Of a stretch of 64,000 nucleotides of DNA, positions 12,777-60,444 are shown one piece after another. Position numbers and translations under genes: made by a program. The stretch spans positions 4,805,857 through 4,869,856 of the forward strand of contig OY725493.1 in assembly GCA_963281255.1 (NCBI GenBank). Direction: 5' to 3'. The notes below the pieces were generated by a model. That model did no database searches, was not told the origin of the DNA, and worked only from the letters and a program-made list of their open reading frames with translations. This DNA is from Aphrocallistes beatrix. Its lineage: Eukaryota; Porifera; Hexactinellida; Sceptrulophora; Aphrocallistidae. Within the stretch, counting starts at the first letter, position 1, and each line of letters opens with the position of its first letter.

Positions 12777-15338
12777 TTAAAATACACGAATTTTGCTCTT
12801 TGGAATGTCGCTTATGTTGTCGTCAATCATCGTGATGAATAAGAAATTGAAAAACAATCCGAATGAAGATAGAATATGCCAGATATCATGAGAGTCGTAA
12901 AACCCTAGGAAAATACAGTCATGGTTCAGCATTCTTGACATGGAAGCAGAGAGCTGCCAGTTCGTGACAGAGGAGAAGAAAAAGTAAAGCGCTGTCAAGA
13001 AAAAAACAATTGCAACAACCGAAAGAAATGTAGAGAATAAAAACACAAAGGGTCTATTTTTAAACTCGCAATAAAGGATTTTCATTCCCCAATAGTAGAC
13101 CATATATATGACGAGATTGCTTATGATGAAGAAGAGGAGTGCTGTAGCTGCGTCTAATTTATAGTAAAACAATCCTGTTAGACATACACCATTCACTATA
13201 CATAGAATGATTATGTGTAAAATGCGGGCTCTGTTAACAGGTGGGAAACAGATGTTCTTGCATGAAGATTGTAGAACATGCCACCTTCTCGCCTTAATCG
13301 TATCACAGATAGCATGCCAGAAAAGAGTAGGGTGAGAGAAAAAATAAATGTGTATGCAAATAAAGGATGTTATTCCGATTACGATGAGTGCATAGATAGT
13401 ACGAACTAGAAGGAAGTCCTGGTTCCCAGCAAGAAGCCCGAATGCAGTTAGGATGATGAGTGACCCGAGTAGCATGAACGTGCTGGCCGCACCGACACTT
13501 ATATCCGGGTGTCTGTTCTGATAGAGTTTAAGAATACAGAGCGTACTGATAATGAACATGAACGAACTATCAAACTGGAAATTGATCCCGGAAGGGCAAG
13601 TGTGATAAATTGATGACATGAGACCCTCGCTGATCAGTGCAAACCCCAAGGCGTAATAAATCCCGAAATAAGGTGTGATACCCCTCTCCTTGTACTCTTG
13701 GATCGCTTCCTTTTCGCTTTTTTTTAACATCTGACTGCGTAGGAATTGCTTAACTCCAGTTAGCAGGATAAACGCCACTCCCAGCACAAGATAAGCTACA
13801 TTACTCCATATGTTGTTGAAGGAGACCGCCTCACCTAAAGTGTGAGAGCATTTGAAATTGAAATAACACAAGTCGTTATCGCCGTTCCGGTACAAAAGCA
13901 CACGGAATACGGCAACTTGTACAGCGGGTAATGCGTAGAACATCGTCACTGTAATTACTGAAGTGAGGTATAGCAGGTATTTCTTCCATAAATATATGTC
14001 GTGTTTACGTGAGAGGTCGTGGAGGTAGAAATTGTCTTGGTTATATTTCAATTTCATTTCTCCCTTACTCATCCCTACAACCCCTGCACTGAGGCTTTTG
14101 AAACTCAGAGGGATAGATGGGTCTTCAATGTAACTGTTCACATCTAGTGGGGAGGCATTTTTTGGTAGATCTACGGAAAGCAGGCTTGAATCAGGACGCC
14201 CACCTAAAAATTCGTCATTTCCCACCTGTTTGTTCGAAAGTAGAGGTGTAGTTTGATTCGAGCTTCCTGGTCTGTAATTCCCGATAAACTCCCTGCAGCA
14301 ACCAAGGAACTCAAATGAAATATCGTTATCGTATTTAACAATGTTGGAAAGTTTAGGAGTGTAGAATATGAATGGCCAATTCCTTTCTAAGGCCTTGCTT
14401 CTGTATACCACAATTGTCTCAACGATGAAGAGTGGAATCAGAACGAAGAAGGGGAGTAGTAGCAGCACTAACAGAATCACGACTGGACGCCAATAGTCCC
14501 AACTAGCTAACTCCAATCTGACCATGATATCCACTGTTTTAGTTAGAGATATCTGTTCGGCATCCACCGTATCCGATTCGGAATTAGAACATTTTCCATC
14601 AGGAGCTGACACCAATACGAGATAGTGATCTCGCCCCTTACCATCTGCATTTCTGTCAATAATGATATCAGCTGTCTTATTGAATGTGAGGTAGACACCT
14701 CTGTAGTCTACGGTGCTCAACAGATCATCTACTGGGCATTCTGCTGGCTGTAAGGATGCGACTACGCAAGAGGAGTTGGCCGAGCTAAGGGTCACACGGA
14801 TGATATCAGAAGAAGCGTTTTGTGGAAAGGAAACGCGGAAGTATTGAGGTGATCCATCTGATATGTTCACCGTCGTGGGATTGACGGAATTATTCGGAAT
14901 CAAATTAAAATCAGGGACGATGGTAACTTGTAGAGTGTAGTTGATTGATATCGTGGAAGAGGTGAGTACCCATATGGTGACTCTAGGAGATTCGTTAACA
15001 TGGTCAGAGCAGAGAGTACGCGAAACTTGAGTGTAGCCTATCCCCGTGAATTTTGACAGGTTGAGTGGAAGTGTCCATGATAGGATGGAGTATCTCTGCT
15101 CAACAGAGATCAACAAGGGATATGCTATATCGCTCGGGGTGTTGGTCAGCACGGTCTTGATACGAATTGTCTGTCCCTGCTCTCTCATGAAGGAATAGGA
15201 TTGAACCATGCCATCCTTTAGAGAACCGTTATAGATTTTGTTAATCTCAATCGTTTTGTTGTCCACAGCATTGAGCGTTTGTTGTCCAATTATTTTACTT
15301 ATCAGTGTGAAGGAGAACAGAACAAACAGAATCTTCAT
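12777..15338 (-). CDS. SIDT: SID-1-type transmembrane protein (SIDT family)
   Basis: Multipass protein of the SID-1 / SIDT1 / SIDT2 family, linked to double-stranded RNA or cholesterol transport and related to the CREST hydrolases. One uninterrupted frame of 853 residues, the usual family length (human about 830). A signal peptide leads into a beta-strand-rich ectodomain with many N-glycosylation sequons, a first helix near residue 290, a cytoplasmic loop, and then about ten helices. The CREST-type metal and catalytic residues are present: the Ser of NIWSNVAYLVLG, the His and Asp of GLMSSIYHTCPSGINFQFDSS, and the two His of YDSHDIWHILSSFGLF. Intronless, whereas animal SIDT genes usually have many introns. 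Confidence 0.92.
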   Translation of the reverse strand: MKILFVLFSFTLISKIIGQQTLNAVDNKTIEINKIYNGSLKDGMVQSYSFMREQGQTIRIKTVLTNTPSDIAYPLLISVEQRYSILSWTLPLNLSKFTGIGYTQVSRTLCSDHVNESPRVTIWVLTSSTISINYTLQVTIVPDFNLIPNNSVNPTTVNISDGSPQYFRVSFPQNASSDIIRVTLSSANSSCVVASLQPAECPVDDLLSTVDYRGVYLTFNKTADIIIDRNADGKGRDHYLVLVSAPDGKCSNSESDTVDAEQISLTKTVDIMVRLELASWDYWRPVVILLVLLLLPFFVLIPLFIVETIVVYRSKALERNWPFIFYTPKLSNIVKYDNDISFEFLGCCREFIGNYRPGSSNQTTPLLSNKQVGNDEFLGGRPDSSLLSVDLPKNASPLDVNSYIEDPSIPLSFKSLSAGVVGMSKGEMKLKYNQDNFYLHDLSRKHDIYLWKKYLLYLTSVITVTMFYALPAVQVAVFRVLLYRNGDNDLCYFNFKCSHTLGEAVSFNNIWSNVAYLVLGVAFILLTGVKQFLRSQMLKKSEKEAIQEYKERGITPYFGIYYALGFALISEGLMSSIYHTCPSGINFQFDSSFMFIISTLCILKLYQNRHPDISVGAASTFMLLGSLIILTAFGLLAGNQDFLLVRTIYALIVIGITSFICIHIYFFSHPTLFWHAICDTIKARRWHVLQSSCKNICFPPVNRARILHIIILCIVNGVCLTGLFYYKLDAATALLFFIISNLVIYMVYYWGMKILYCEFKNRPFVFLFSTFLSVVAIVFFLTALYFFFSSVTNWQLSASMSRMLNHDCIFLGFYDSHDIWHILSSFGLFFNFLFITMIDDNISDIPKSKIRVF

Positions 15339-15541
15339 AATCTAGACTAATACGCTATCAGAATCAATTTAATTATATTGTCAAATATAAGCATTTGTTT
15401 GTACAATATTATATTAGGCTCGAGTTCAACCTGAAATCATAGTTTTAAAAAATAATCATGCATTGTGAATCATACTCTAACTCCTTGACTGAGACTAAAA
15501 ACTAAATATTGAATCAGATGAGAAACCCATTTATGCATCAG

Positions 15542-32093: not shown

Positions 32094-34046
32094 TCAAATT
32101 ACATAAACAAGATTGGCTCTGGTGTCAGTGAGTATCAGACGTCCAGAACTGGTGACCGCCACTCCGCCCGGTCGCTCAAACTGAAACTGAAAATACTCAA
32201 ACACAAGGTTCCCTCGACGATCATACTTGAAAACCTGCCTTAATTCCGTGTCAGTGAACAGGAAACTGTCATCTAGAGGACAGTAGGCGAAGAAGAGAGG
32301 AAATTCCATCTTTCCCTGGGGAACGCGATTAATGAAAGAGCGAAGATAATCGCCTCGCAATGAAAACACGTGCAGACACGGGTTCCCTTCGTCTAAGACT
32401 ACGATTTCCCGATTCACCACATTCACATCACATGGTTGATTCAATTTATGGTCCCCGTCACCCTCGATCACTTGACGCAGAGCAAAGTTGGCTTTCTCAC
32501 TGCCATCGTACACCTTTACAGCTCCACCCAACTGCTCCGCCCGATCTGCAACGTACAACCAGTCATCTTCAGTCACGTATAGACCCTCAGGGTATAAGAG
32601 TTCGCTAGAAGGATCTTCATCTGATGGCATGCCAACCACAGCAATGAAAATGCCATTCATATCGTAGACAATCACACACTTATTGGCAAGGTCAGTGATG
32701 TAAAGCATTTCATTCCTCACCGCCACCCCCCATGGAGATACCTGAACGTTACCCAGCGACCAGCCGGAATCAATTTTAAACTGGCGGATGAACTTCCCAC
32801 CCTCTGAGAATATGTGCACCTTAGGCTCTTCCGAATCGATAACGTAAATTTGTTGGTTTTCATCTGTCACTACGCTGACTGGTTTTTGTAGTCCCAATTT
32901 TCCCGCCGAGCGCAGCTTCAATATTTCGCGTGAAACACTCATTTTATTTATGTCTGCTTCCAACCCGAAGTCTGGTACGATCCTGATGTCTGGCTTATTG
33001 GGAAGTTGTGTCATAAACTCATGATTCTCTGAGATGGTTTTGTGACACATTTTCTTTAGAAAATGTGACTTTTCGAGTATGGTTGAGGGGGGTGTATAAT
33101 TTCGAGTCATTTCTAGAATGGTCTTAGTTTGTGAGAGGTGATTTACAATGGATGAAATCGACTCGAGTGATTTGCTAATATCATCGCGTGTTTTAGAAAA
33201 TGTTTTTCTCATTGTCTCTATTTCGGATTCCTTTTTACTTCGCAGTTTTGTTATTAAGTCATCATAATATTTTGTGATATTTTCTTCCACAGTGATTTCT
33301 TCCTGAGGAAGCGAGTTTCTGACTTGAGACAGCCGTGTTTTTTCCTCAAGAAACTGACTAATCTCTTCCTCGAGGTTCTGATACGTCTTGTCTAGTTCCT
33401 GTACAGAACTGCACAGAGCCTGTCCTGGCTTGAGTAAATCGTGTCCATGATGTTCTGCCGTTATGCAAATCGCACAGCCGAGCGCCTGATCTTTCTCGCA
33501 GAAGAATTCCAGCAGGGCAGTGGGGTGCCTGGGACAGGGACCGAAGTGTGTGGGGTGTGACTCCATTGGAACAGAGTTCGACACTAAACAGGTCATGTTG
33601 TACTTATTTACTACGGCATGGTATTTCGCTCCACTCGTGAATTTACGATGCGCTTCGGAATCATGCTCACACATATACTTGGCGCAAGAAGCACAGTAGT
33701 ACGTAGCTATTTCCGCTGGCTTCACTAAGCAGTCACTACACTTTCCTTGTTTTGTGAAATATTCCTTCACCTGTTCCGTAGATGCCACCTGTTCAGCGAG
33801 AAAATTTTTCTCTAGACCTAAGGTAGAAAATGTCGTTTTCGGACCGCAAACGAAACAGGAAAATGTCGATCGCTGACTCCGAAATAAGCCTTGTGGTTTT
33901 GTAATGCATTTTTTGCACATGATGTGGGAGCATGGTAGTATGGCGGAGTCAGGGGAGAATGCGTGGCATTGGTTGCAAGATAGGTTGACTTTGAATGAGT
34001 CAAGAAGATTGAACGAATTTCCTTTCACGAATTTCACTTCACTCAT
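32094..34046 (-). CDS. TRIM-NHL protein (RING, B-boxes, coiled coil, NHL repeats)
   Basis: Tripartite-motif protein of 650 residues, intronless. An atypical RING (CNQCHAFSPDSAILPCSHIMCKKC) lies in the first 70 residues. Two B-boxes follow: CSDCLVKPAEIATYYCASC near residue 103, and CPRHPTALLEFFCEKDQ..CAIC near 170. A coiled coil of about 100 residues leads into six NHL-type beta-propeller blades from about residue 375 to the end (for example PWGVAVRNEMLYITDLANKC and RPGGVAVTSSGRLILTDT). In TRIM2/3/32/71-type proteins the NHL propeller binds RNA or protein targets and the RING conjugates ubiquitin. No filamin domain is present between coiled coil and NHL, which makes it closer to TRIM32/TRIM56-like layouts. 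A shorter RING-less relative is at 53224-54471. Confidence 0.88.
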   Translation of the reverse strand: MSEVKFVKGNSFNLLDSFKVNLSCNQCHAFSPDSAILPCSHIMCKKCITKPQGLFRSQRSTFSCFVCGPKTTFSTLGLEKNFLAEQVASTEQVKEYFTKQGKCSDCLVKPAEIATYYCASCAKYMCEHDSEAHRKFTSGAKYHAVVNKYNMTCLVSNSVPMESHPTHFGPCPRHPTALLEFFCEKDQALGCAICITAEHHGHDLLKPGQALCSSVQELDKTYQNLEEEISQFLEEKTRLSQVRNSLPQEEITVEENITKYYDDLITKLRSKKESEIETMRKTFSKTRDDISKSLESISSIVNHLSQTKTILEMTRNYTPPSTILEKSHFLKKMCHKTISENHEFMTQLPNKPDIRIVPDFGLEADINKMSVSREILKLRSAGKLGLQKPVSVVTDENQQIYVIDSEEPKVHIFSEGGKFIRQFKIDSGWSLGNVQVSPWGVAVRNEMLYITDLANKCVIVYDMNGIFIAVVGMPSDEDPSSELLYPEGLYVTEDDWLYVADRAEQLGGAVKVYDGSEKANFALRQVIEGDGDHKLNQPCDVNVVNREIVVLDEGNPCLHVFSLRGDYLRSFINRVPQGKMEFPLFFAYCPLDDSFLFTDTELRQVFKYDRRGNLVFEYFQFQFERPGGVAVTSSGRLILTDTRANLVYVI

Positions 34047-34431
34047 TTCTACTGAAAGAATAATAAAGAAAGTTCAACGATTACCTCTCTCAACGATATA
34101 AAGATATTTATATCCCAAATGTAGACTTGTAATTAAAAATCTAAGCATATTTTGATTCAAATTTCAGGTCTATAAACTAATTAGATATTCGTGTCGGCAT
34201 AAGCCCTGTTGTTATTTTGCCGAGAAGAATGCTTACGGGGTCAATAGCTGAGTGCGGTTTAAAGTACTACAATCACTACTGAGAAATTTCAGACGTAAAC
34301 AAAACGACTTAGAGGGAGTGCAGAGTTAAGTTCACTCGTCTAACTATTGCATAGGTTGTTGCACACTTGTGTAGAGTGATTAGTGAGCTCGTAGCTCACG
34401 TGCTATGTGAACTAAGAGCAATTAGCATAAA
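34047..34431. other. Intergenic region upstream of TRIM-NHL
   Basis: About 385 bases with the presumed TRIM-NHL promoter and the 3' UTR of the next gene. No open frame or repeat seen. Confidence 0.4.
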
Positions 34432-49530: not shown

Positions 49531-50003
49531 TTACCTAGTTGAGGATTCGCTCTTTTGATCTTTGCCCATTTGCAACAATTCTCCATCAGGTTCTGAAATG
49601 TGAAACATAGCGTGCTTACAACTTGTTTCAGACGAGGCAGTTTGTAATGGGATTTCGAATGTAAAGCAATTGTCTTTAACTGAAACATTCATGACGAGTG
49701 ACTTGTCAAATCCCAAAGGTTGCTTGATTCCTATATCATATGGCTTTAAGACATTGAAATAGATGTTGCCACCATATGGACACATCATCTATGAACTCAC
49801 CTATTATTAGGAATCTGTCATACTGCGGTTCGTGAGTCCAGACCGTGACGTCATGGTTTAGAATCGGAGGAATACTCTGATCGCTGTTTATTCGCAAATT
49901 AGAACCATCGGTTCCGATATCTTCCTCGCTATCTTCATGCTCAGAGTCAGAATGAGTTAACTATAGTAAAACTGTTATATAATTATTCAAATCGAGGCGG
50001 TCG
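49531..50003 (-). CDS. Small protein of unknown function, multi-exon, start uncertain
   Basis: An exon at about 49961-49804 encodes an acidic stretch (HSDSEHEDSEEDIG) followed by ILNHDVTVWTHEPQYDRFLII, ending at a strong donor (G|GTGAGT). After a 73-base intron an exon at about 49730-49531 continues GIKQPLGFDKSLVMNVSV and ends SESSTR. The upstream start exon is unclear: ATG TCG GAC near 50030 is a candidate, but it has no good donor. I do not recognise the family. The gene is divergent from the receptor-kinase fusion gene, with starts only about 110-140 bases apart, so the two may share a promoter. Confidence 0.45.
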
Positions 50004-50140: not shown

Positions 50141-52925
50141 ATGGAAACAGACACAGGATGCGAAAACGTGTGCGTTCTTTGCATTAATGAGAGTTCGAGA
50201 AGACTAGGAGATTTATTCAATCAAGATACCTACCAATACTTCAGTTTATTATACTTTATTGGTAGTCTGTTCAGTATTGTGAGTCTATTGATAGTTGTTT
50301 CCTCTTATCTCGTGCTGAAACCGATTCGCAAGCACCCAGCTCATTTGGTACTATGCCGCGTTGCATCAGATTTTATTGTTAGCATTACACATATCGTGTT
50401 TTATTTAGACAACACTAATGCAGATAAACTTTTTAATCATACACTCAACGATATCAATTCATCATGTCGTTTCTACTCGCCACTGATTAACTTCGGGATG
50501 TTCTCAGGGTATGCATGGAATTTCATTATGTCAGTGGATTTACTCCTAGCAGTGAAACGCCCCTTCCAACTCCATGGGAGTTACCTCAAGTACTATCATG
50601 CTGCAGTCTGGACAGTTAGTGCGATTTTGACGCTTGTATTCATCGTGAGTTTCTATGCTTGGAAACCAAATGGAATGTCAATGTTTTTTCATTGCTGGGT
50701 AAACGTAGAAGACTTTGATGGCTACATCGCTTTTTCAGGTTTGATTTACTATATACCAACTTCAGTCTTATTTGTCATCGGATGTATATTTGTATCTCGC
50801 GTATTAAAAAAATTGAAAGCTGTAGCTCTTTTCAGTCCAGAAATCAAGAGCCACATTACTAAGCACAGTCTAGGGATGTTATGTGGATTAGGTGTTGAGT
50901 GGCTGCTTACATTGCTGCTATGGCTAGTCTCTATTATAATCAATTTAAATAATGTGTCAACACTGCCATCAAACAACTGCAGTAGTACGACGCCAAAGTT
51001 CGGATTCGATTGCAACCCAGCGTTTGTAAAATATTCTCAACTAATACTGACCTATTCTTACGTCACTATCCATTCGGTTAGAGGGTGCATAGTGCTTGCT
51101 GCTTGGCTGTTTTCAATATACATAATTACTAAAGCTGAAAGAAAGAAGAGAATAGACACAGAGCGTAAAATTAACATAAGAAAAAGGTTTGGTACTACTG
51201 CACACAATGGAAGACATTGTAGTGATTCTTCAGCATCGAATGATCGAGAGAGAAGGTTCACTGATGAAAGTAACGAGAGAAGGCCTCTGGTTATGCCTGA
51301 TAGTGAGAGCAGTGAAAGCGGATTGGTAGAGTACATGTTCAATAGCGAGCTGAGAAGATATGCAGTAGTCTGCATCAATTACTCCCTTTTAGACTCTGCG
51401 AAAACTGCTCAATCACAAATTACTGGAGATAATTGTTCAAATATTCAACAAAATGTAAGTTTATTTTCATAATTTATGTTCCTACAACTGCCTTGATTCT
51501 ATACTCTCTCCTTCGACAGGTGACTCTAGAACAAGTAATACTGAAGTCTGAAAGTCGCTACCAAGGAAGAAATGAGGTTAGAACTATACAGATACCGGCC
51601 TATTTCATGTATCATAAATTTCAATTCATTAACTACTCCCCTCTCCTTTTCAAAAACCTGAGAGATCTGAGGGGAATAGATGGAGGAGAATTCATGAAAT
51701 CTTTTCCACTTGAAGACAATGAAACAGCCGCAATGGCGGAGAGATTTACAGAAGGGAAAAGTGGGAGCTTCTTCTACTATTCACATGATAAAAAATATAT
51801 TGTAAAGACGATCAATAAAGTTGAGATGAATTTTATGGTTCGAAACATACAAAAATATTACAAATACTTGAAAAATAATCGTGATTCATTGCTGACAAGA
51901 TACTATAACATGCTAAAGCTCAGATTCTCAAAAGAACAAGAATACATTTATGTGGTTGTAATGGAAAACGTGTTTTACCTCCAGGAAGGGCTAGTACTGG
52001 AGGAGAGATATGATCTAAAAGGATCAATCACAAACAGACAGACTCTGAAAAGGGGCATGGAACGGTCAAAATATAAAACAATGAAAGATATGGATCTGGA
52101 CGGCTCATTCAAAATAGACGTATCTGTAAAGGACCGATTGTTAAAACAATTGGACAAAGATACAAACTTTCTACGAGACATAGGTAATTAATTCATTGAC
52201 TATGGATTTTGCTAACTTATTTCCGGTTAAGTCATTTTGGACGGGGAAACCATAGAAATGTGGGTCCAAGCTATAAATAGAATGGACCCCAGGTCATTGA
52301 AGGATAATTATTAATAATTGTTAAACCATATACAGTGGACCCTGCTAGAATATGTATATTATCTGATTGAATGGCTGCTTCTATAGGTTCGATGGATTAC
52401 AGCTTATTGATGGGTGTTACTATAAATCGTAATGAAGAGGAAAAAAGTTTCAGCACAAGCATGCAAACTAATGTCCACAGCGAGACTGAAAAAGAAATAA
52501 CAATAGTAGGAGAGGACCTGAGCTACGATTGGGTGAGCTCCAAACCGGAGGATCTGCATTGGTACAGAAATGGCAAGTATAAGGAGCACACTCCTTCAAA
52601 GGTTTCAGACCAAATATTGGTTAACGTTGATACAATTAATCCAGCAGAAAGCATCTTCACTCATTTCAGGCGAGGTTTTTTCAGACTGCCTGGAGAGAAA
52701 ATATCAAACAACCGGCATTCTAACAGGGAATCACATGAAAGAGAGCCGTGCTACCTCTATCTAGGACTAATTGACGTGCTGCAGCCTTATGATCTGAACA
52801 AAAAATCGGAAAATTTCGTAAAAACAAAGGTTCGAAGGCTTAAAGAGTCACACATTTCAGCTGTGGAGCCTGGTTACTACAAGACTAGGTTCATGCGTTT
52901 TATGCGAGACAGTGTGTTCTACTAA
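50141..52925 (+). CDS. Seven-transmembrane receptor fused to a phosphatidylinositol phosphate kinase (GPCR-PIPK)
   Basis: Three exons, 50141-51454, 51520-52183 and 52387-52925, in phase, 838 residues. Residues about 35-335 have seven hydrophobic helices; the first loop carries KPIRKHPAHLVLCR. A cytoplasmic linker, Arg/Ser/Glu-rich, leads to a type I/II PIP kinase domain from about residue 440 to the end: GKSGSFFYYS, then YIVKTI (ATP Lys534), RYDLKGS, a DTNFLRDIG stretch, MDYSLLMG (Asp663), GLIDVLQPYDLNKKSE (Asp789) and a C-terminal VEPGYYKTRFMRFM. All three residues needed for catalysis in PIP5Ks are present. The exon 1 to 2 joint falls just before the kinase N-lobe. The architecture equals the GPCR-PIPK (RpkA-type) proteins of Dictyostelium and oomycetes. 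The ATG at 50141 is used; the frame extends upstream only to a TTG. Confidence 0.9.
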
Positions 52926-53223
52926 CTGCGAATTAGCAGGAGTGTACTTTGCTAATATATAGACTGTATTAAATTAATATTACACTAATCTTGTTATAAC
53001 AAACGAATGTCAGCAAATATTTTAACAATGGAGCAACAATTGAGCAATCGATGCGTAGTATTTCCAGCTAATATATCCTCCTGATTTGCTTGGAGTGGTA
53101 TTTGTGCTCAGTCGAAGATTACATTACATAAAATGACGATAATCTCATATAGGCTATATATAGATTGGAAGAAGGGATAAGAAAGTATCAATTTTTACTA
53201 ATTAGCTTGGTTTGAATCAGAAA
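52926..53223. other. Intergenic region between the receptor-kinase gene and the NHL gene
   Basis: About 300 AT-rich bases with the 3' UTR of the fusion gene and the promoter of the NHL gene. Nothing else seen. Confidence 0.4.
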
Positions 53224-54471
53224 ATGGCATCTCGCCCAAGTAGTCCCAGCTGCCAAGATGATATGCAAAAAATTCTTTCGCAACTGAAACAGCACATTGA
53301 CTTGCGCAAAAAAGAGCTTGAAAGTAGCTTTAACACTATTTTGGATCGACTAACAAAGAAGAAGGAAAAGCTATTCCAATCACTGGACAGTATATTGATG
53401 AATACGGAGGAGGAAATAAGGAAAAAGTACCTTCTACCAGAAGAATATACACACAAGAGAGCTACCGCAATCGGAGGACATTTGGCCTCTCCAGAACACG
53501 TCACGTTTGAAGAACCTGAGCACTTCTCGGCTAGCCTCAATGTGAACGATGACGATGAAAAGGTGGACATACCATTCGTCAGTATTCTCAAAGACCCACT
53601 CGAGTTAGATTTCTTCGTAGATAATTATTTCCAAATTAAGATGATAACGAATCAGTACATTTACAAAAAGCACCCGAAATGGCAAATGAATGTGATGAAG
53701 GGTTTAGGATCTCCAAAAGGAATTTGTGTATGCCAGTATACCGGGACGATTTACGTAGCAGAGAGTGGACGTAACTGCATTCAAATATTCGACAAAACAG
53801 GCGCGCACGTTCGAATTGTCAAGGACCTCAAGATGTCAGCGCCACGCTACCTCTGTCTGGATGAGAAACATATCTTTGCGAGTTGTTGGGACAACCAGGT
53901 GCTCTTGAAACTGGACAGGAACACCGGCATTAGGATAGGGTACCATCATGCTAAAGAATACATTACTGGAATCACAGTTGATAAACATGAAGATCTGTAT
54001 GGGTGCTTATGGAAACAGAACACGATCGTGGTGTGGGGTAAAGACTTAGTGAAGCGATCAGAAATTAAACTAGACGATTTATTTATAACTGAAAACACAC
54101 GAATATGCGATATCTGCTATTCAAACAAAACGTTCTACATTCTCTTTGAGAATTCTTGCTTTCCAGTGCAAACGTTTAACAAGAAAGGTGACTTGATTAG
54201 GTGTGTGGTTAAAGAATCAGATATCAAATGCAGCCAGCATATCGCGATAGACCACGATGGGAACATACTAATTAGCGACACCCGTGAAGATGAAAGGAAT
54301 ATCAGAATATTCTCAAATATCGGTGAACCTGTCCACTCCATTCAGGTGAAACATTCCCAAGGAAAGGAGAAGGAGAAAGGCAAAGCAGTCGGTCTGTTGG
54401 ACGGAATCGGATCGGATCCGATTGCAGGGAATATCTACATCTGTGACTCAGATCACATATACAAGTATTGA
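53224..54471 (+). CDS. NHL-repeat protein with N-terminal coiled coil (RING-less)
   Basis: Intronless, 415 residues; ATG at 53224 (MASRPSSPSCQDD), the upstream in-frame TTG being ignored. The first 80 residues form a charged coiled coil (KKELESSFNTILDRLTKKKEK). From about residue 150 an NHL-type beta-propeller follows (GSPKGICVCQYTGTIYVAES, then QHIAIDHDGNILISDT). There is no RING or B-box, so it resembles the C-terminal half of a TRIM-NHL protein such as the one at 32094-34046. A role in protein or RNA binding is likely, without direct ligase activity. Its last 24 bases overlap the 3' end of the convergent gene at 54448. Confidence 0.75.
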   Translation: MASRPSSPSCQDDMQKILSQLKQHIDLRKKELESSFNTILDRLTKKKEKLFQSLDSILMNTEEEIRKKYLLPEEYTHKRATAIGGHLASPEHVTFEEPEHFSASLNVNDDDEKVDIPFVSILKDPLELDFFVDNYFQIKMITNQYIYKKHPKWQMNVMKGLGSPKGICVCQYTGTIYVAESGRNCIQIFDKTGAHVRIVKDLKMSAPRYLCLDEKHIFASCWDNQVLLKLDRNTGIRIGYHHAKEYITGITVDKHEDLYGCLWKQNTIVVWGKDLVKRSEIKLDDLFITENTRICDICYSNKTFYILFENSCFPVQTFNKKGDLIRCVVKESDIKCSQHIAIDHDGNILISDTREDERNIRIFSNIGEPVHSIQVKHSQGKEKEKGKAVGLLDGIGSDPIAGNIYICDSDHIYKY

Positions 54472-59193: not shown

Positions 59194-60444
59194 ATGGCAT
59201 CAAATAACATGAGTGAATATGAACTCCAACCGAGAGAAGGTAAGAACATAGTAAGTGCATTTATTACATTTGAATTTATATATGGTATATTATTCTAGAG
59301 GAGGATGTGTTGAGGGAAATCAATCAAATCAATCAGAATTTTTCACCGGTCTATAAAAAAGTGTTCATATCTTACTGTAAAGACGATCCGACAGACCCTT
59401 ACTGGATTAAGACTGTGTACCAATTCGTGTATTGCCTCCTAGCGCTAGGCATCGATGTAAGCGTAGACTTCCTTGAAGATAACGGAGGGGGTAACCTTGC
59501 TTTCGAGATTGCGAATAAAATCGAACTTTGTGACAAGATTTTAATGATAAATAGCCCTGAGTATTACAGGATTATTACCAAGCAAGAACCACGCGAAGAC
59601 CAGACTTCGAGGAGCGTAGCGTTTGAAGGACAGCTTATCTACTCTGAATTGTTCAAACAAAATGGAAAGAAGGTCATTCCTATATTTCTTAAAAGATACC
59701 CTGGTATGTTGGGGATCATCCCTCCAGCCTTCAAGACGAACACAACCTACATTTTGAAGGTGTCGCCTACTTGTTTAGACTTGACTAAATACGACAAATT
59801 TACACAATTGGCTTGCTCGTTAATAGGAATTAACGTCAAGGAATGGGGAGGTTAGTGCTTGGTCTTAGAATGAATCATGCTAGAGTTAATTAGACCTTTA
59901 AAAACAGATCATTTCTACACTTCAAAAATGTGTAAAATTTACTAAATTTATCTCTTATAAAATACGTAGGTACTGTGAACTTGAACTCGTGCAGGTCTAT
60001 CCAACTCGTGGAGTTAGTATCGAATGTAGAGATCTTCCCAGATCTAGACAGACGGCTGAGCGAGGGGAGTCCAGAGGGATTTCTTACTAGTCTCCTGCCA
60101 TTTGTGATGCCATTCTGGCAGCGCCTGGCCCTGGAATTAGAGGTGAATCTGAAAACGGTTAAAGAACTGTATAGCAAAGAATCAGAAAAGGAACAATGCT
60201 ATCAATCACTCTACCAATGGTGGAAGTAAGTCACACAGTTATACAAAATGAAATTGGCATTATTATTATTAATATTATTTAAAACGCTTTCAATTCTAGG
60301 AAGCAGCCTGAAGCCACGTTTAGAGACCTGATAGCAGGGCTGAACGCAGTGATCGGAGTTGACACACGGATGCTTATCCAGAGGATAGAGAAGTATGCGC
60401 TGCAGCAGCAACGATCAGCTAACGAGCAAGATCCAAGCAAATGA
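59194..60444 (+). CDS. SEFIR-Death domain adaptor protein
   Basis: Four exons, 59194-59239, 59299-59850, 59970-60225 and 60300-60444, in phase, 332 residues. Residues about 30-190 form a SEFIR/TIR-like domain: KKVFISYCKDD, the ALGIDVSVDFLED box, LCDKILMINSPEYY and VIPIFLKRYP. The wording of the box 1 and the central D motif is closer to SEFIR (IL-17 receptor, Act1/CIKS) than to TIR. Residues about 205-312 have Death-domain features (FWQRLALELEVN, LYQWWKKQPEATFRDLIAGL). With no signal peptide or membrane helix it looks like a cytosolic adaptor, by analogy with MyD88 (Death then TIR) but in the reverse order. It probably links an IL-17R-like receptor to kinases, which is inference. Confidence 0.75.

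Follow-up and report, generated by a model that had tools for sequence, protein, structure and literature searches.

We identified on the forward strand of the window, the 64,000-nucleotide stretch of the Aphrocallistes beatrix genome analysed here, a gene which by its architecture, kinase clade and 7TM homology is a GPCR-PIPK (type IV PIPK). The gene model comprises one spliceable frame, a 7TM region of the family type and intact catalytic residues. It is probable, in our judgement, that this single-copy glass-sponge gene encodes a predicted receptor joined to a PIP2-making kinase, in which a conserved helix, the LR helix, corresponds to helix α1 of the kinase and the receptor would control the kinase through its pairing or orientation.

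Members of the GPCR-PIPK family have been described before in amoebae, oomycetes, choanoflagellates and sponges. The original prediction had treated an occurrence in animals as unconfirmed, which was not borne out: an Amphimedon GPCR-PIPK was listed in 2011 (PMC3206951) and in 2018 (PMC5784254), and the available text of a 2025 survey (PMC12716839) assigns GPCR-PIPKs among animals only to sponges, with Oopsacas in the sampled proteomes. The abstract of PMC5784254 calls every GPCR-PIPK species unicellular, and the accessible part of its own text lists the sponge Amphimedon. The present gene adds a complete single-copy member from a glass sponge, in whose genome five further PIP kinase loci allow comparison.

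Gene model and genomic setting

The gene at 50141..52925 (+) consists of three exons and two canonical introns and yields one protein of 838 residues, with the sole stop codon at the end. Its features are as follows.

50141-51454 (+): exon 1, 438 codons, residues 1-438, ATG at 50141; N-terminus, seven membrane helices, variable linker and LR helix
50231..51145 (+): 7TM core, residues ~31-335, from hydropathy, the GPCR-PIPK 7TM profile and the model of the Oopsacas ortholog
51296..51436 (+): conserved LR helix, residues 386-432, proposed kinase helix α1, from conservation, structure alignment and profile match
51350-51388 (+): LR(x)9SL motif within the LR helix
51455-51519 (+): intron 1, 65 bp, GTAAGT..CAG, phase 0
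51520-52183 (+): exon 2, kinase N-lobe with the glycine-rich loop, K534 (AAG at 51805-51807) and DLKGS motif
52184-52386 (+): intron 2, 203 bp, GTAATT..TAG, phase 1
52387-52925 (+): exon 3 with D663 (52395-52397, in MDYSLL), an insert, D789 (52773-52775), KKSEN with E801, and the stop codon
52968..52973 (+): ATTAAA just past the stop codon, possible polyadenylation signal by motif only

The coordinates and residue numbers of the original prediction proved exact, the frame running from 50141 to 52925 without an internal stop. Its central claim, that one spliced frame joins seven membrane helices to a full PIP kinase retaining K534, D663 and D789, was confirmed as a gene model.

Alternatively, exon 1 could be a 7TM receptor gene and exons 2-3 a neighbouring kinase gene, fused in the gene model only. 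Exon 1 alone is a 438-codon open frame which ends inside the intron, its stop codon finishing at 51472. In addition, a database search with exon 1 returned six proteins from other contigs, each an exon-1-only ORF of 424-436 residues with 50-51% identity and, to judge from this similarity, presumably from glass sponges; that they terminate near the same exon 1 end would fit a separate receptor gene. However, all six carry the conserved exon 1 end followed by '..VS' and a stop a few to about 15 residues on, and '..VS' is the translation expected when a GTnAGn donor is read through, as it is at the GTAAGT donor of the window. The ortholog of Oopsacas minuta (LOD99_4998, P0001) has both domains in one protein, although P0001 is itself a database gene model, and further database proteins carry 7TM and PIPK together. 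The conserved LR helix, whose counterpart in ordinary PIPKs is part of the kinase, sits in exon 1. Intron 1 has a phase of 0, canonical splice sites and a length of 65 bp, and short introns are usual here, with one of 81 bp in the adjacent chaperonin gene. Exon 1 searched against its own genome matched only itself, with no second 7TM match. One transcript for the 7TM and PIPK parts is indirectly supported by the one-protein ortholog and the exon-1 ORFs, and two separate genes appear very unlikely.

The contig that contains the window is 5.3 Mb long, in a genome of 100.5 Mb. Animal-type genes surround the GPCR-PIPK gene, encoding a SID-1 channel, TRAF/MATH, B-box/NHL, Sdh_cyt and a chaperonin. 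With the long contig of the sponge's own assembly, the glass-sponge ortholog and these neighbours, the view that contamination is unlikely was upheld. A PIP kinase model searched against the genome gave 10 exon-level matches, two of them in the GPCR-PIPK gene and eight in five other loci: C6 and C17 are PIP5K-like open frames, C12 is a PIP4K-like open frame, C18 is a spliced PIP5K-like gene, and C16, within a 2125-residue frame, is called PIKfyve-like by assumption only. By these searches the GPCR-PIPK gene is single-copy in the genome.

The receptor and kinase halves and their family

Hydropathy analysis revealed seven hydrophobic segments in residues 35-330 at a threshold of 1.3 and six at the stricter 1.6. 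The ortholog P0001 has six segments at 1.3, yet seven helices in its predicted model. Pfam 7tm_2 matched residues 34-262 with an E value of 2.4e-12, above the curated cut-off (6e-13 with exon 1 alone). A profile built from 13 GPCR-PIPK receptor regions, with no glass sponge included, scored the 7TM region of the window at 139 bits, against 4.7 bits for the best of 200 shuffled sequences, and three further membrane proteins encoded in the window were absent among the top 13 matches listed. The corresponding scores were 47 bits for 7tm_2 and 28 bits for Dicty_CAR, although scores from different models are not strictly comparable. By sequence, the 7TM region is homologous to those of other GPCR-PIPKs.

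The kinase half matched Pfam PIP5K over residues 508-834 with an E value of 1.9e-68, above the curated cut-off. K534, D663 and D789 lie on the IVK, MDYSLL and IDVLQ motifs and are identical in all nine other kinases aligned; the glycine-rich loop, DLKGS, MDYSLL and the activation-loop (di)lysine are all kept. The kinase domain is thus apparently intact in its catalytic residues. Residue E801 in the activation loop is Glu also in five receptor-type and three PIP5K rows, whereas the sponge's own PIP4K has Ala. We take Glu at this position to favour PI4P over PI5P. Against solved structures, PIP4K2 chains matched the window protein slightly better than PIP5K1A; therefore, the search alone gives no support for a PIP5K-type substrate. 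In the fold comparison with the model of P0001, PIP5K1A and PIP4K2A were less than 1 Z unit apart.

That the kinase domain is a pseudokinase scaffold of the receptor seems improbable. The accessible text of PMC12716839 describes GPCR-PIPKs as having no identified ligands, with G-protein involvement not known and the experiments on lipid signalling missing, which leaves room for a scaffold. Against it, the window protein and its ortholog both retain the catalytic residues despite only 55% identity between the two, and loss of RpkA in Dictyostelium leaves cells low in PIP and PIP2, as described in PMC3206951.

The family of the kinase was addressed by two trees, from both of which the sponge's own C18 PIP5K and C16 kinase were left out. 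The receptor label in these trees includes ORFs with fewer than four helices detected (P0005, P0008-P0010, P0012, P0016, P0017, P0021 and P0023), which are probably truncated and were labelled by the LR helix plus a partial receptor. The first tree, with 61 rows of the 124 sequences matching the kinase profile, revealed a 37-row clade at 100/99, made up of 34 rows labelled 7TM and three labelled solo. Two of the solo rows, P0027 and P0032, were relabelled for an LR(x)9GI helix at their start, and the third, P0062, sits on a very long branch. The second tree had 52 rows, after removal of the receptor-type P0028, P0036, P0067, P0098, P0112 and P0113 and the solo P0062, P0069 and P0088; all nine were among the ten rows flagged as long in the first tree, and the tenth, the sponge's own PIP4K, was retained. 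All 30 receptor-type kinases split from the 22 stand-alone kinases on a branch of 99/97, and two of the sponge's own PIP5Ks clustered with an insect PIP5K at 100/100. The kinase-domain phylogeny suggested with the original prediction thus places the kinase in the GPCR-PIPK clade and separates it from the stand-alone PIP5Ks of the same sponge.

Membership in the stand-alone Type I PIP5Ks was also tried: grouping with animal PIP5Ks, with the window and Oopsacas kinases forced together with the two own PIP5Ks and the insect PIP5K, was rejected by the AU test (p-AU 0.0018).

Conceivably, a receptor could have fused recently, and in sponges only, with one of the sponge's own PIP5Ks, independently of the protist GPCR-PIPKs, as domain fusions recur and the sponge genome has three stand-alone PIP5K-type genes. 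The kinase tree and the AU test, which included two of these three genes, disfavour an own-PIP5K origin, and the 139 bits of the receptor half came from GPCR-PIPKs outside the glass sponges, making such a recent origin extremely unlikely. The kinase clade together with the 7TM profile match indicates that receptor and kinase alike are members of one known family and that the fusion is old.

The LR helix as a proposed kinase helix α1

Identity to seven close homologues is 70% in the LR helix, 53% in the 7TM core and 26% in the intervening residues 336-385. According to the available text of PMC5784254, most GPCR-PIPKs have the motif LR(x)9GI, but 9 of 60 non-oomycete gene models lack it, so it is diagnostic and not required. 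The motif of the window, LRRYAVVCINYSL, keeps the LR pair, the spacing and the final hydrophobic residue, with the Gly replaced by Ser. Literal LRxGI was not matched in the glass-sponge sequences, which have LR(x)9S[IL].

The 2018 study (PMC5784254, van den Hoogen) argued, in the text available, that the LRxGI 'linker motif' lies outside the kinase, being near the 7TM region, amphipathic and predicted to be helical. The LR helix would then stand outside the kinase fold, as a helix 8 lying on the membrane or as a linker particular to the family. The LR pair itself is without counterpart in the 22 aligned stand-alone kinases, in keeping with that view. However, the helix is found about 50 residues beyond the 7TM core, after a variable stretch, and in the predicted model of P0001 it lies between segments with pLDDT below 50.

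Structure and profile alignments, in contrast, place the LR helix on α1. When the P0001 model was superposed on PIP kinase chains, 49 of the 50 rows listed had an alignment whose first model residue lies within 389-398, the sole exception being PIKfyve; the comparison covers the kinase part, and kinase chains filled the listed rows. In the best row, S407-I408 would fall, if the alignment is ungapped, on G69-I70 of zebrafish PIP5K1A (numbering via K171, from the accessible text of PMC4570271). The folded model is that of the Oopsacas ortholog, with a mean pLDDT of 69.9 and values below 50 at 355-389, immediately ahead of the helix, and AlphaFold may place the LR helix by memory of solved PIPKs.

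Alignment of the LR-block profile against the profile of stand-alone kinases set GI on GI with a score of 16.95, equalled by 0 of 200 and 0 of 600 column shuffles, although the hhalign probability was low (13.9%) and column shuffles lose helix periodicity. All 37 chosen proteins gave an LR block, under a pattern that demands [GSA][IVL] and with P0024, P0028 and P0029 set by hand. A profile from the eight glass-sponge sequences only did not rise above chance against the stand-alone N-terminal region (59 of 200 shuffles as high), and its failure to match α1 is a point for the linker view. At the proposed α1 position, Ser is found in 8/8 glass-sponge-type GPCR-PIPKs and in 0/51 other PIP kinases, which have Gly or Ala, the fused rows of this count having been chosen by a pattern permitting only G, S or A there.

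P0027 and P0032 are database kinases that lack a receptor and in which the LR(x)9GI helix begins no later than residue ten. They are either truncated ORFs or GPCR-PIPK kinase halves split at the boundary between receptor and α1. That such receptor-less proteins still start with the LR helix speaks against a helix outside the kinase fold, though possible truncation softens the point.

Taken together, the correspondence of the LR helix to α1 in sequence and predicted structure has moderate strength, and a helix outside the kinase fold is the less likely reading, at perhaps one chance in four. On balance we lean towards LRxGI being α1 of the PIPK fold, with the receptor joined at a dimerisation element so that it sets kinase dimerisation or orientation, and with the glass sponges having retuned the helix by replacing a small Gly or Ala with Ser. 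Helix α1 forms part of the dimer interface in solved PIP kinases or borders on it. The available text of PMC4570271 describes α1 contacts in the PIP4K2B dimer and contacts of the α1-α1a loop in the PIP5K1A dimer. A literature search by motif and family names, with supplements beyond its reach, did not find the α1 reading of LRxGI in print, weak evidence that this reading may be new.

Proposed mechanism, relatives and neighbouring genes

If the LR helix is α1, the receptor is joined directly before the element through which PIP kinases pair. We propose that the membrane receptor senses some signal and that the protein converts PI4P to PI(4,5)P2 at the membrane in which it resides. A stretch that is variable and probably flexible would tether the receptor to the dimerisation and orientation element of the kinase; the receptor would hold the kinase at its membrane and set the pairing or orientation of the kinase, thereby controlling its activity. 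A rigid lever is disfavoured by the variability and low model confidence of the residues ahead of the helix. Endosomal or phagosomal membranes are a possible site by analogy with Dictyostelium RpkA, which is endosomal/phagosomal as described in PMC3206951. We infer that the window protein is expressed and active, and its substrate, dimer control and location are deduced in the same way; direct coupling of a ligand to PIP2 would be the outcome. If true, the α1 reading turns an unexplained motif into a known structural element and offers a testable switch idea for receptor-fused lipid kinases across the whole family.

The best of 146 database matches (120 listed) was P0001 of Oopsacas minuta, a hypothetical PIPK-domain protein, with 55% identity over 97% of the length. 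Similar to the window protein, it has a 7TM region, an LR(x)9SI helix and an intact kinase, and sequence divergence is the only difference seen. The main text of the Oopsacas genome paper (PMC10280926), as available, is without mention of PIPK. The next match listed, LOC135805550 (P0002) of the calcareous sponge Sycon ciliatum, has 27% identity over 77%; it shares seven hydrophobic segments and a PIPK, and differs in its LR(x)9GI motif with the standard GI. A profile search for a wider distribution gave seven proteins among the matches listed, all already known.

By its description in PMC3206951, the RpkA homologue of Amphimedon queenslandica (XP_003387269, 824 residues) belongs to the same family and length class. 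Dictyostelium RpkA, likened from the same source, has the same architecture in an amoebozoan and was studied by knockout and localisation. The oomycete and choanoflagellate GPCR-PIPKs share the architecture, type IV kinase and LRxGI motif, according to the available text of PMC5784254 and PMC12716839; oomycetes, as described there, have 9-13 GPCR-PIPKs per species, whereas a single gene was found in the present genome, its motif having Ser in place of Gly. The stand-alone PIP5K and PIP4K kinases differ in having no receptor and in forming a separate clade.

Several other genes of the window were observed. A single open frame of 854 residues at 12777-15341 (-) matches, with an E value of 1.5e-133, the family of SID-1 double-stranded RNA channels, and a B-box/NHL protein is encoded at 32094-34073 (-). 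Directly downstream of the GPCR-PIPK gene, on the same strand, 53206-54471 (+) is one open frame with an NHL repeat. The open frame at 59274-59855 (+) has weak matches to TIR_2 (28.7 bits) and SEFIR (25.0 bits), barely over the cut-offs, and may encode an IL-17-receptor-type signalling domain in a sponge. Before the GPCR-PIPK gene, an opposite-strand open frame at 49736-49960, a putative gene, has its upstream end about 180 bp from the gene start at 50141, so that a shared promoter is possible.
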